A stretch of 64,000 bases of DNA from Verrucomicrobiota bacterium (GTDB taxonomy: Bacteria > Verrucomicrobiota > Verrucomicrobiia > Opitutales > Puniceicoccaceae): NCBI GenBank assembly GCA_038744685.1, contig JBCDMB010000003.1:124001-188000 (forward strand). The letters run 5' to 3'. Numbering within the stretch: position 1 is the stretch's first letter; each line of letters opens with the position of its first letter. The notes below the pieces were generated by a model, which had not been told where the DNA came from, made no database searches, and saw only the letters and a program-made list of their open reading frames with translations. Below are positions 22,816-26,451 of the stretch, piece by piece. Position numbers and translations under genes: made by a program.

Positions 22816-23193
22816 GGGTGGAATCTCAAAATGGGTGAGTAGAAGCCGCTCATGTACCCCCACTTTATGGGTTTCAAAACGAACCAACGCAAGCACGAGT
22901 CTATCCATTGCAGTATTCGAAGTCTCTGTTCGATGCTTTAGTGTAAAAAAACATTCGCTTGGAGCTCCGCCTGGGCGGAACATTTTTCGTATGGGTGGTT
23001 GCTTGTGCGGAAATCGAAAGCTCACGACAACAGCTAACTTGCCAAGCGGTAGTCTCAAGCGGCTTGAACGAAACCCCACATTCGACAAAGAACCGGTATT
23101 TGATCCAGAGTTGAATGAATCAGACGTGTTTCGCGCTGCTCAGACTCCAAAGATCGGCTTGCAAGAACCGCTGCTCTGAAAGACGCTCCTTTC
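22816..23193. other. 378-nt gap with one dispersed repeat
   Basis: Divergent region between the glutaredoxin-like and DUF2281 genes. It holds repeat family D copy 1 (23038-23069) and a small hairpin TCCGC/GCGGA near 22966-22979. No gene is supported. Confidence 0.45.
23038..23069. repeat. dispersed repeat family D, copy 1
   Basis: A 32-nt block CTTGCCAAGC-GGTAGTCTC-AAGCGGCTTGAAC matches 25083-25115 with one mismatch. Both ends contain CTTG/CAAG palindromes. Confidence 0.75.
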
Positions 23194-23406: not shown

Positions 23407-23943
23407 TTATTCGTTCTCTACTTCCCCCGTAGAGGGCCATTCCAAGAGCATGAACCGTGCAGACTCAACGTCGGGATCTGTCTCGCTTAAACCGAAAGGC
23501 ACTGCGTCGTCAGCATCCATACGCCTAGGGGTCACCAACTTGGAAACGATGCCCGAATAGAACTTCATACCACCAGTGTGGTAGAGAACTTTCGAGGCTG
23601 AGTAGACATTTGAAACGAGAGAAGACACGTGCTTGTCGTATAACGTATACTCAACTCTGCGGGTTTCGGAAAAAAAGAAACTCTCGCTCAATAGTTCAAT
23701 GGCAACCTTTTCCCGTTTCCCATCAAAGTAAGCCAACTCAATCCAGAGATTATCATCCTCCTTGCTTACCATCACTTGAATCACAGATGGTGCAAAGACT
23801 CCCCACGGTTTGTTGGTGTCAGGCTGAATGATGAGAAGGTAGGTTCCTGGTTCCGGTGCCCTGAATTCTTCTTTCCAAGTAGCGAAGCACGTTCCAGTCG
23901 AGAATGTTAGCAAGTAAGCAATAGCAAGAAAATTGACTTTCAT
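23407..23943 (-). CDS. secreted protein of unknown function
   Basis: This 178-residue protein has a signal peptide (MKVNFLAIAYLLTFSTGTCFA, cleavage after Ala21) and no further membrane segment. The mature part is beta-strand-like (FRAPEPGTYLLIIQPDTNKPWGVF, VMVSKEDDNLWIELAYFDGKREKVAIELL) and has no Cys pair or domain I recognise. It should be periplasmic or exported. It ends directly beside the DUF2281 gene with convergent orientation. Confidence 0.7.
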   Translation of the reverse strand: MKVNFLAIAYLLTFSTGTCFATWKEEFRAPEPGTYLLIIQPDTNKPWGVFAPSVIQVMVSKEDDNLWIELAYFDGKREKVAIELLSESFFFSETRRVEYTLYDKHVSSLVSNVYSASKVLYHTGGMKFYSGIVSKLVTPRRMDADDAVPFGLSETDPDVESARFMLLEWPSTGEVENE

Positions 23944-24099: not shown

Positions 24100-24801
24100 T
24101 CAAACCCCGCCAAGAACGCCACTATCCCTTTGATTGATTCTTCGTCCGATAAGCCACGCAAAAATCATGGCGTTGAAGTAGGCAAACAGCAGTAGGCCGG
24201 TCTTGTTTAGAAGTACTGTAATTATCATTCCACCAGTGGTCTGAGCTTGGGTGATCGCTACTTTAGCATTCATGATATTCAGGAAACTCAACCATAGCGC
24301 ATTTTTTGCTGATTGGATCGCTCCATCCGCTCTAGACTCGAACTCGAGAATCAGTGCGCTGCACACTGTGTAGGTCACGAACGTTATGAGAATCACGGCA
24401 AAGGTAACGCTCTGATATCTACTCTTCTGCAACTGATTCAGTAGAACCTTTGTTGACTTAATCGACCTGAGAAACCTCAAAATCCTAACGATCCGAGAGA
24501 TCCTGCCCCAGCGAAGAGGATCTACCAAAGGAATCGACGATAGGAGGTCTATCCATCCCCACTTCAGGTAGCCTAGTTTGTTTCTAGCGGAAAATAAATT
24601 TACGAAAAAGTCTGCGAGAAATACTAGGCAGACAGCTAGATCGATATACTGGAAAACCGATCTAATCTGCGGGTTGGAGACGACGAACGCATCGAGAAAA
24701 AGGACGACCAGAACATAGATGCTTAAAGCAAGTAACGTTAGTTGGTAGGCGGCGTTTCCTTTGTCTTTCATCTTCTCAAAGGCTAGATAAAAATCGTTCA
24801 A
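24100..24801 (-). CDS. voltage-sensor ion channel-like protein with non-canonical pore
   Basis: This 233-residue protein has the six-segment layout of a voltage-gated cation channel: S1 about 20-40, S2 50-70, S3 82-92, S4 98-116, then S5 132-152, pore loop 165-190 and S6 190-218. S4 carries Arg at 97, 100, 103, 106, 109, 112 and Lys115, one basic residue every third position. The pore loop reads NIMNAKVAITQAQTTGG, where potassium channels have TVGYGD. It starts with TTG at 24801 behind a perfect AAGGAGG, only 2 nt away. An ATG at 24771 is the alternative. The start overlaps the stop of the upstream GIY-YIG gene. Confidence 0.82.
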   Translation of the reverse strand: MNDFYLAFEKMKDKGNAAYQLTLLALSIYVLVVLFLDAFVVSNPQIRSVFQYIDLAVCLVFLADFFVNLFSARNKLGYLKWGWIDLLSSIPLVDPLRWGRISRIVRILRFLRSIKSTKVLLNQLQKSRYQSVTFAVILITFVTYTVCSALILEFESRADGAIQSAKNALWLSFLNIMNAKVAITQAQTTGGMIITVLLNKTGLLLFAYFNAMIFAWLIGRRINQRDSGVLGGV

Positions 24802-25052
24802 AACCTCCTTCGGGAAAACTCACGCCCGGATCCTGATTTAAGGTATTTCTCGAAAGCTATTGCTTTCTCTTTCGACCGAAACCGAAGAACCGTTTCATCA
24901 GTCCATGGCCTGAATCTAGAGGTGTGCGGGACGCCACCTTGATTGTGCTTCTTCAATCGGGTATTAAAATCCGCTGTAATCCAGACGTAAAGCCGCGCTG
25001 GATCGATTTTTGAAACCAAAATATAGACGTAAGTGTATTCGCTATCCGACAT
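24798..25052 (-). CDS. GIY-YIG nuclease-fold protein
   Basis: This 84-residue single-domain protein has the GIY-YIG layout: TYVYILVSKIDPARLYVWIT (first tyrosine pair), NTRLKKHNQGGVPHTSRFRPW with the catalytic-region Arg, and a Glu in IAFEKYLKSGSGREF. In typical UvrC/YhbQ-like members the second motif is YVG; here it is YVW. Small GIY-YIG proteins of this type occur widely and their role is uncertain (DNA repair or mobile DNA). The stop codon overlaps the TTG start of the channel gene by 2 nt. The start is the ATG at 25052; an upstream start would add basic residues without a domain. Confidence 0.82.
   Translation of the reverse strand: MSDSEYTYVYILVSKIDPARLYVWITADFNTRLKKHNQGGVPHTSRFRPWTDETVLRFRSKEKAIAFEKYLKSGSGREFSRRRF
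24804..24810 (-). promoter_or_regulatory. perfect Shine-Dalgarno (AAGGAGG) of the channel gene
   Basis: AAGGAGG lies inside the end of the GIY-YIG gene, 2 nt before the TTG start of the channel gene. It is one of few strong ribosome-binding sites in the window and supports the TTG start, although the spacing is short. Confidence 0.6.
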
Positions 25053-25080
25053 AACTAAACGAACGAGAAACGAAATGAGC

Positions 25081-25229
25081 CGGCTTGCCAAGCCGTAGTC
25101 TCAAGCGGCTTGAACACGGGGACTCTCAGTCCGCCTACGCTCTTCGAGACTTCGGTTTATCCCGCCGAAGCTCTTAGAGCGTAGGAGGACGTGACAGCCT
25201 TCGCCCTGCGCTGCGCTTGAGCGAAGAGA
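25081..25229. repeat. dispersed repeat family D, copy 2 (long form)
   Basis: Starts with GGCTTGCCAAGCCGTAG and TCAAGCGGCTTGAAC, continues with a block like TCCGCCTACGCTCTTCGAGA, and ends with a GCCTTCGCCCTGCGCTGCGC block. The order of these blocks repeats at 25301-25411. The first part is also found at 23038. Confidence 0.75.
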
Positions 25230-25300
25230 TCAACGCATCAAACGAAATCGGCTGCTCGGTCATGGTTCTCTTTCCCAATAGCCACAATTTCCGACGTTGC

Positions 25301-25411
25301 TGGCTTGCCAAGCCGTAGACTCAAGCACTTCTGCCGAAACGTAAAAGTCCGCCTGCGCTCTTCGAGACTTCGGCGTGACAGCCTTCGCCCTGCGCTGCGC
25401 TTGAGCGAAGG
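25301..25411. repeat. dispersed repeat family D, copy 3, abutting tRNA-Leu
   Basis: Repeats the same ordered blocks as copy 2 with a shorter middle (tandem-like, about 220 nt apart). It ends 2 nt before the CCA end of tRNA-Leu on the other strand. Confidence 0.75.
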
Positions 25412-25412
25412 C

Positions 25413-25499
25413 TGGTGCTGAGGGCGGGACTTGAACCCGCACATCCGTAAGGACACATGAACCTGAATCATGCGCGTCTACCAATTCCGCCACCCCAGC
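25413..25499 (-). tRNA. tRNA-Leu (CAG)
   Basis: An 87-nt class II tRNA. Acceptor arms GCTGGGG and CCTCAGC pair with one G-U. The anticodon loop TTCAGGT gives CAG, reading CUG. A long variable arm (TGTCCTTACGGATGT) is present, and the CCA is encoded. The D loop has AATTGGTAGA. A repeat copy touches the 3' end. Confidence 0.96.
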
Positions 25500-25822: not shown

Positions 25823-26068
25823 ATGGGTATGGGTTCAAAAAATGTCTCTATTTCTGAAGATGCTTACCTAATCCTAAGAAGAGCACGGCGTCATCCAGGC
25901 GAGTCCTTTTCCCAAGTCATTCGTAGAGGTCACTGGGACTCGACCACTCCAATCGCTAGGTCCTGGCTGGACAGTTTTCAAAAGACCCCGATCGTTTCCG
26001 ATGCGGTCTTAGACGATTGGGAAGCTGCCCAGAACGAAGATACTCCGCCGAAGGACAAATGGGCATGA
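25823..26068 (+). CDS. VapB-family antitoxin
   Basis: This 81-residue protein has the VapB pattern SKNVSISEDAYLILRRARRHPGESFSQVIRRGHW at the N-terminus, the part that forms the ribbon-helix-helix or DNA-binding half. An acidic C-terminal half (VSDAVLDDWEAAQNEDTPPKDKWA) probably wraps the toxin. It precedes a PIN-domain gene and its stop overlaps the toxin ATG by 4 nt (ATGA), the standard arrangement of an autoregulated toxin-antitoxin pair. Start is the ATG at 25823; the ATG at 25829 is possible. Confidence 0.88.
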   Translation: MGMGSKNVSISEDAYLILRRARRHPGESFSQVIRRGHWDSTTPIARSWLDSFQKTPIVSDAVLDDWEAAQNEDTPPKDKWA

Positions 26069-26451
26069 TGATCGATACCTGCTTCCTGATTGATTATCAG
26101 CGGGAGGCAAAGGCAGGGACGCACGGTCAAACGATTGCCTTCTTGGAGGCGCACCCGGACGAGCGCCTGTCCATTTCTCCCATTGCCTGGGGAGAGTTTA
26201 TGGCGGGTTTCCAAAGCGAAGAAGATCCTTACATCGCCTTCGCTCGCGACCGTTTGGATTTTCCTCATTTAAGCATGAATGTCGCATTGGCTTACCGCCA
26301 CATCTATCGCCATTTGAAAACCGAGGGTCGGCTAATCAGTTCGAACGATCTCTGGATTGCCTGTCACGCGATAACCCTAAAACTGCCGCTCTTGACTCGC
26401 AAAGGAAGCGACTCGCGAAGGGTCCCTGACCTTATCACTCAGGAGTATTAG
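26065..26451 (+). CDS. VapC-type PIN-domain toxin
   Basis: This 128-residue PIN-domain ribonuclease has its acidic metal site visible: Asp4 in MMIDTCFLIDY, Glu44 in WGEFMAGF and Asp95 in SSNDLWIACHAI. PIN toxins of VapBC systems cleave tRNA or rRNA and are held inactive by the antitoxin. The start is set at 26065 because it gives the 4-nt ATGA overlap with the antitoxin stop; longer in-frame starts at 26017 and 26059 are less likely. The 3' end overlaps the convergent gene at 26448-26451. Target RNA is unknown. Confidence 0.93.
   Translation: MMIDTCFLIDYQREAKAGTHGQTIAFLEAHPDERLSISPIAWGEFMAGFQSEEDPYIAFARDRLDFPHLSMNVALAYRHIYRHLKTEGRLISSNDLWIACHAITLKLPLLTRKGSDSRRVPDLITQEY

Follow-up and report, generated by a model that had tools for sequence, protein, structure and literature searches.

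The gene examined here encodes a putative voltage-sensing protein without the filter of potassium channels, and a small GIY-YIG gene stands beside it on the same strand of a Verrucomicrobiota genome. Does the missing filter mark a genuine non-potassium pore, and do the two genes belong together? The first-pass annotation, made from the sequence alone, answered yes to both, reading the genes as overlapping, jointly transcribed and functionally linked. Positions below are those of the window, i.e. the whole 64,000-nucleotide stretch that was analysed, and the features discussed are collected in Table 1.

Table 1. Features of the channel locus and their positions in the window.
Feature	Position	Strand	Remarks
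Variable segment	23409..25412		178-aa ORF, channel, GIY-YIG gene and repeats; missing at the same tRNA-Leu site of congener G003; low GC
Voltage-sensor channel gene	24100..24771	-	223 aa; Pfam Ion_trans; start from homologues; AF2 model pLDDT 87
S6 Asn189-Lys190	24202..24207	-	Invariant in the eight-member clade; canonical relatives have Met plus a small or hydrophobic residue
Pore-loop motif NIMNAKVAI	24253..24279	-	Residues 165-173, replacing TxTTVGYGD; Lys170 codon 24262-24264
S4 helix	24448..24513	-	Residues 87-108; a basic residue every third position, eight in total
GIY-YIG gene	24798..25052	-	84 aa; PF01541; ATG 25052; Trp in place of the YIG Gly; Arg and Glu retained
Hairpin repeat block	25070..25412	-	Between tRNA-Leu and GIY-YIG gene; akin to repeats that follow other tRNAs of the genome at the 3′ end
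tRNA-Leu(CAG)	25413..25499	-	5′ neighbour of the variable segment

The channel gene is intact, its open frame spanning 24100-24801 on the minus strand, and its product belongs to the ion channel superfamily by its match to Ion_trans (PF00520, E 7.4e-9, 35.6 bits against a curated cut-off of 25). A single-sequence search of the PDB with the channel protein returned no match; a profile was required, and 1orq was among its top matches (E 1e-5). The S4 series runs R, R, R, R, R, R, K, K and is kept in all nine members of the clade described below. The regular spacing first reported for S4 was therefore correct, but the count of seven basic residues was one too low. The charge-transfer centre expected of Kv channels (acid, aromatic, acid in S2 and an Asp in S3) is present in 9/9 members as D44, F51 and D54 of S2 and D75 of S3, and the S4 spacing is likewise that of Kv channels. 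With the Pfam match above cut-off and the sensor residues complete, the description as a six-helix voltage-sensor protein holds. An AF2 monomer model (pTM 0.81) predicted six membrane helices and a pore helix, giving the S5-P-S6 pore fold of Kv channels, and the best Foldseek matches of this model were Kv channels (top fold match 8vc3, E 9.5e-4). Its pore domain, as predicted for the monomer only, is KcsA-like (Z 12.8, rmsd 2.3 Å over 101 residues). Comparison with a control model of a TVGYG relative revealed only a subtle difference at the filter, which is insufficient to infer permeation.

The pore loop contains no TVGYG and reads NIMNAKVAITQAQTTGG. Its filter, MNAKVAI, aligns without an indel to the TTVGYGD of relatives, so that N-A-K-V-A stands where Kv channels have T-V-G-Y/F-G and Lys occupies the G77 position; the first-pass reading of a pore without the potassium filter is borne out by this alignment. 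A homologue search across 84,980 species, each represented by one genome, recovered 44 related loci, seven of which carry N-I/V-M-N-A-K-V/I-A/S/T-I/V where most others have T-x-T-T-V-G-Y-G-D. These seven, all from Pseudomonadales (Amphritea, Marinobacter, Gynuella, Ketobacter, Alloalcanivorax and two uncultured members), are 51-64% identical and make up, with the window copy, an eight-member clade (NAK), or nine members once a locus from an Opitutaceae genome (L008) with NILNGKSSI at the filter site is counted. In a maximum-likelihood tree the NAK clade and L008 were monophyletic (support 100/100) on a long stem, and the window copy nested within the gammaproteobacterial group (support 99/94). 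A relic fragment in genome G551 also has MNAKV. The non-potassium pore is thus no peculiarity of a lone degenerate copy: MNAK is shared by seven relatives in a fully supported clade, as would be expected of a genuine feature.

The eight-member clade is fixed at 16 positions for residues seldom seen in 58 canonical relatives, and 13 of these positions fall within the P loop or S6. Among the 16 are Asn for T72, T75, M96 and T107 and Lys for G77 (KcsA numbering by alignment), the last at the first filter glycine, which is Gly in 58/58 of the canonical relatives compared. Elsewhere in the filter, the second glycine has become Ala, Ser or Thr and the Asp has become Ile or Val. Mean identity within the clade reaches 0.81 in the P helix and 0.77 in S6, which ranks both with its best conserved segments. 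Synonymous differences among the eight NAK members are saturated (pS 0.80-0.98), whilst pN is 0.14-0.35 overall and 0.00-0.19 across 14 pore codons; by this measure the pore codons are under strong purifying selection. The concentration of clade-specific substitutions in the P loop and S6 looks like coordinated re-engineering rather than decay, and selection of this strength on the new loop and S6 speaks for some role of the pore. Going by K+ channel chemistry, a coordination cage could not form normally given the Lys, Ala/Ser/Thr and Ile/Val substitutions, and the clade has very probably lost K+ selectivity. The window copy has two oddities by the pore helix, W161L and Asn157 where others have Asp or Glu, and given these it may perhaps be less constrained than other members.

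Altered filters were also seen outside the NAK clade. In five Kv relatives from the window's order (family f17; L061, L062, L064, L071 and L072) TVG is followed by A, S, G or T rather than Y, possibly another selectivity shift. Filters have been lost in further lineages (L020, GSQSSSRLYP; L025, ISQGSGLYNP; L035, LTGELGEHSP), with L020 and L025 clustering in the tree.

Known channels place the family more closely. KvAP and Kv1-type K+ channels (1orq, 6uwm, 8vc3) share with the window protein the S1-S4 sensor, the charge-transfer centre and the S5-P-S6 pore; the window protein differs in having NAKVAI for TVGYGD and in the Asn and Lys of its S6. Bacterial Kv relatives that are uncharacterised and keep TVGYG (such as L029 and L010-L019) are roughly 35-43% identical and have YLKWGWIDL in common with it, and the NAK clade branches from within them in the tree. 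Most of these relatives end in an acidic or coiled-coil-like C-terminal tail, which the NAK clade lacks. The Kv-like sensor and gate scaffold of the family is well supported by sequence, and the family would descend from a Kv-type K+ channel. NavRh (4dxw), a bacterial voltage-gated Na+ channel, matched by profile (E 1e-5) over the sensor only, and where BacNav channels have an acidic filter of the LESW type the window protein has NIMNAKVAITQAQ, which contains no acidic residue. Nor does the protein belong with the sensor-only Hv1 type, as S5, P helix and S6 are all present in the AF2 model. Among the known non-potassium classes that could be tested, none fits the pore.

The channel family is sparsely distributed. 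It occurred in 1/163 genomes of the Marinobacter family and 1/46 of the Alcanivorax family, and among 273 genomes of the window's order only the window copy and its Opitutaceae sister were found, judged by score and by inspected pores. The window genome holds a single copy with no close paralogue, and the gene is absent from the same-genus genomes searched. At the same tRNA-Leu(CAG) site of congener G003, about 730 bp of other sequence replaces the variable segment, and the GC content of the channel gene is 45% against 53-57% around it. Because the copy nests among gammaproteobacterial ones, is low in GC and is missing at the congener's site, we regard the window channel as a horizontal acquisition at a variable tRNA site. 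A contaminant contig was ruled out, both flanks being syntenic with G003. Also within the variable segment, a 178-aa protein (23407-23943, minus strand) has an N-terminus like that of a signal peptide and matched nothing in Pfam or NCBIfam. Across the tRNA-Leu, on its 5′ side, a VapB antitoxin and PIN toxin pair (25823-26451) takes the place of a stretch of only about 54 nt in congeners G002 and G003; the site is therefore variable on both sides. A tRNA-linked insertion is not a general rule of the channel family, since other carriers have no nearby tRNA, with the exception of L102 (about 2 kb away). Viral contigs and phages contained no relative, PADLOC gave no match and plasmid records yielded only matches about 23% identical to the channel; a phage, plasmid or defence origin was ruled out by these searches. 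Nothing evident is common to the neighbours of the channel at the eight other carriers, where no conserved operon partner was seen. No description of the NAK channel was found in the literature searched, which is weak evidence as preprints and subscription journals were little covered.

The supposed overlap with the GIY-YIG gene disappears once the start codon is set by homology. An overlap at TTGA requires a TTG start at 24801; the N-termini of clade homologues (MKEKG in Ketobacter and Amphritea, MQERG in Alloalcanivorax, also MREKG) align to ATG 24771, and the Marinobacter homologue has GTG at the same codon. From ATG 24771 the channel gene begins 26 nt past the GIY-YIG stop. The perfect AAGGAGG (24810 down to 24804), first taken to argue for the overlap, is 2 nt from TTG 24801 and 32 nt from ATG 24771, badly spaced for either, and codes for Arg-Arg within a C-terminal nuclease motif (GSGR.F..R/K-R/K) common to most other GIY-YIG copies of the genome. 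Translational coupling was ruled out by the start-codon comparison and the Shine-Dalgarno spacing, although co-transcription in this one genome is possible. Moreover, no recognised GIY-YIG gene adjoins the channel at any of the eight other carriers (0/8), so neither the association nor the functional link built on overlap and a joint transcript is supported; in Ketobacter, the ORF that follows the channel gene was suspected of a GIY-YIG-like motif and had no Pfam match.

A closer inspection of the GIY-YIG gene points to the tRNA instead. The gene matches the family profile (PF01541, E 8.7e-11, above cut-off) and keeps YVY, Arg and Glu; with the Gly of YIG lost, the window copy may be inactive. 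Each of the six standalone GIY-YIG genes of the window genome follows a tRNA or tmRNA gene on its own strand (tRNA-Asn, tmRNA, tRNA-Met, tRNA-Leu(GAG), tRNA-Met with a degenerate GIY-YIG and, in the window, tRNA-Leu(CAG)), the domain starting 18-378 nt past the RNA 3′ end; the genome's UvrC has no such linkage. In samples made up of best-scoring loci rather than drawn at random, small GIY-YIG genes were linked within 500 nt in 8/13 testable cases in the order and 14/26 across the phylum. Together with the genes of the window genome, these samples comprise window 24798-25499, L103-L107, L120-L132 and L161-L186. UvrC-type or long GIY-YIG genes were linked in 0/14 cases, and no case within 500 nt was on the opposite strand. 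Chance would give linkage at about 0.3% of positions, assuming some 47 RNA genes per genome. The position of the GIY-YIG gene beside the channel would thus reflect a tendency of such nuclease genes to settle at tRNA genes, and not joint function. With the standalone proteins of the GIY-YIG superfamily, the subject of a published survey (PMC1564403), the window gene shares the fold, by Pfam, and the active-site Arg and Glu, its Trp for the YIG Gly being a difference; the parts of the survey consulted do not mention tRNA linkage. Reports of standalone GIY-YIG genes 3′ of tRNA or tmRNA were not found in the literature searched, where coverage was limited, and the pairing may possibly represent an undescribed tRNA-3′-end element.

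The hairpin repeats at window 25070-25412 recur elsewhere in the genome beside the tRNA genes Leu TAG, Ala GGC, Leu TAA and Val GAC (L112, L113, L114, L116), and at the start of several elements a GCCTTCG hairpin is set directly on the tRNA CCA end. A 46-nt relative lies at window 23024-23069. In congener G003 (L153, 15900-16904) a tRNA-Cys is followed by two tandem units, each of a GCCTTCG hairpin and a GIY-YIG gene of about 84 aa.

How, then, might the rebuilt pore work? We rank a low-conductance path not selective for K+ first and a shut, sensor-only protein second. The former, which we favour tentatively and at somewhat less than even confidence, is a horizontally spread, Kv-derived sensor and pore family whose pore has been rebuilt to low conductance and away from K+ selectivity. 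Four subunits would assemble round a central pore, as in Kv channels, and depolarisation would move S4 and open the S6 gate. With four lysines ringed where G77 formerly stood, and with the Asn rings, the K+ coordination cage would be destroyed, leaving a poorly selective path of low conductance for small monovalent ions, perhaps anions, by which the cell could shunt its membrane potential; the adjacent GIY-YIG gene would be an unrelated element at a tRNA 3′ end. One copy per genome, no close paralogue to pair with and no conserved neighbour speak in favour. However, the four lysines might simply plug a filter this narrow, and the family is small, with nine members found. By analogy, a four-positive ring at a P-loop apex need not forbid conduction: Q/R-edited homomeric AMPA receptors have such a ring at a tetrameric P-loop apex, and homomeric GluA2(R) still conducts, with P_Cl/P_Cs estimated at 0.14 (PMC6754398). 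These receptors differ in being ligand-gated and of inverted topology, and the comparison is one of working, with no homology claimed. That the family is a new voltage-gated channel class, a horizontally spread, Kv-derived homotetramer whose Asn/Lys filter carries anions or non-K+ cations under voltage, is conceivable but on balance unlikely.

The second-ranked reading, to which we give a similarly modest chance, is a silent voltage sensor whose pore is shut by Lys and Asn and which signals the potential through a change of shape or contact with a partner. The loss of K+ coordination, with Lys in place of a Gly kept in every canonical relative compared, the complete sensor and the missing C-terminal coiled coil, which most canonical relatives have, all agree with it; the highly conserved P helix and S6 would be needless in a plugged, unused pore, and neither a conserved partner gene nor an effector domain was seen. 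A gating pore within the sensor itself, whether for protons as in Hv1 or for something else, would leave the central pore a purely structural part; this is improbable. The sensor is intact, the central pore is not a K+ pore and an acidic residue is kept in S1, but the same acid is present in canonical K+ relatives, all S4 Arg and Lys are kept and the substitutions cluster in the pore rather than the sensor. Eukaryotic electrically silent Kv subunits provide a precedent for modifier subunits, and by that model the protein could be a regulatory subunit that silences canonical K+ channels by joining their subunits; this is very improbable here, as searches of the window genome and the eight other carriers revealed no close canonical relative, further matches being absent or very weak. 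Equally improbable is a degenerate K+ channel on its way to a pseudogene. The missing TVGYG, the two odd residues of the window copy and the relic in G551 would suit such decay, which is contradicted for the clade by a motif common to seven relatives over several families, intact frames and strong purifying selection. Least probable of all is a single GIY-YIG and channel module: the genes are adjacent, on one strand and 26 nt apart, but they do not overlap, the YIG Gly is lost, no other carrier has a recognised GIY-YIG neighbour and tRNA linkage accounts for the nuclease gene.

As far as the evidence goes, then, there is no functional link between the GIY-YIG gene and the channel, and each has its own significance. 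The GIY-YIG genes 3′ of tRNA and tmRNA suggest an undescribed kind of small element that would occupy tRNA 3′ ends across the phylum. In the channel, a Kv-derived protein lacks the filter that defines K+ channels and bears, in its sequence, every sign of selection for something else. A Lys fixed at the filter glycine and an Asn/Lys pair in S6, both under strong selection, amount to a natural experiment on the potential of the K+ channel scaffold, for which NAK orthologues are available from the cultured marine bacteria Amphritea atlantica and Marinobacter lutaoensis.
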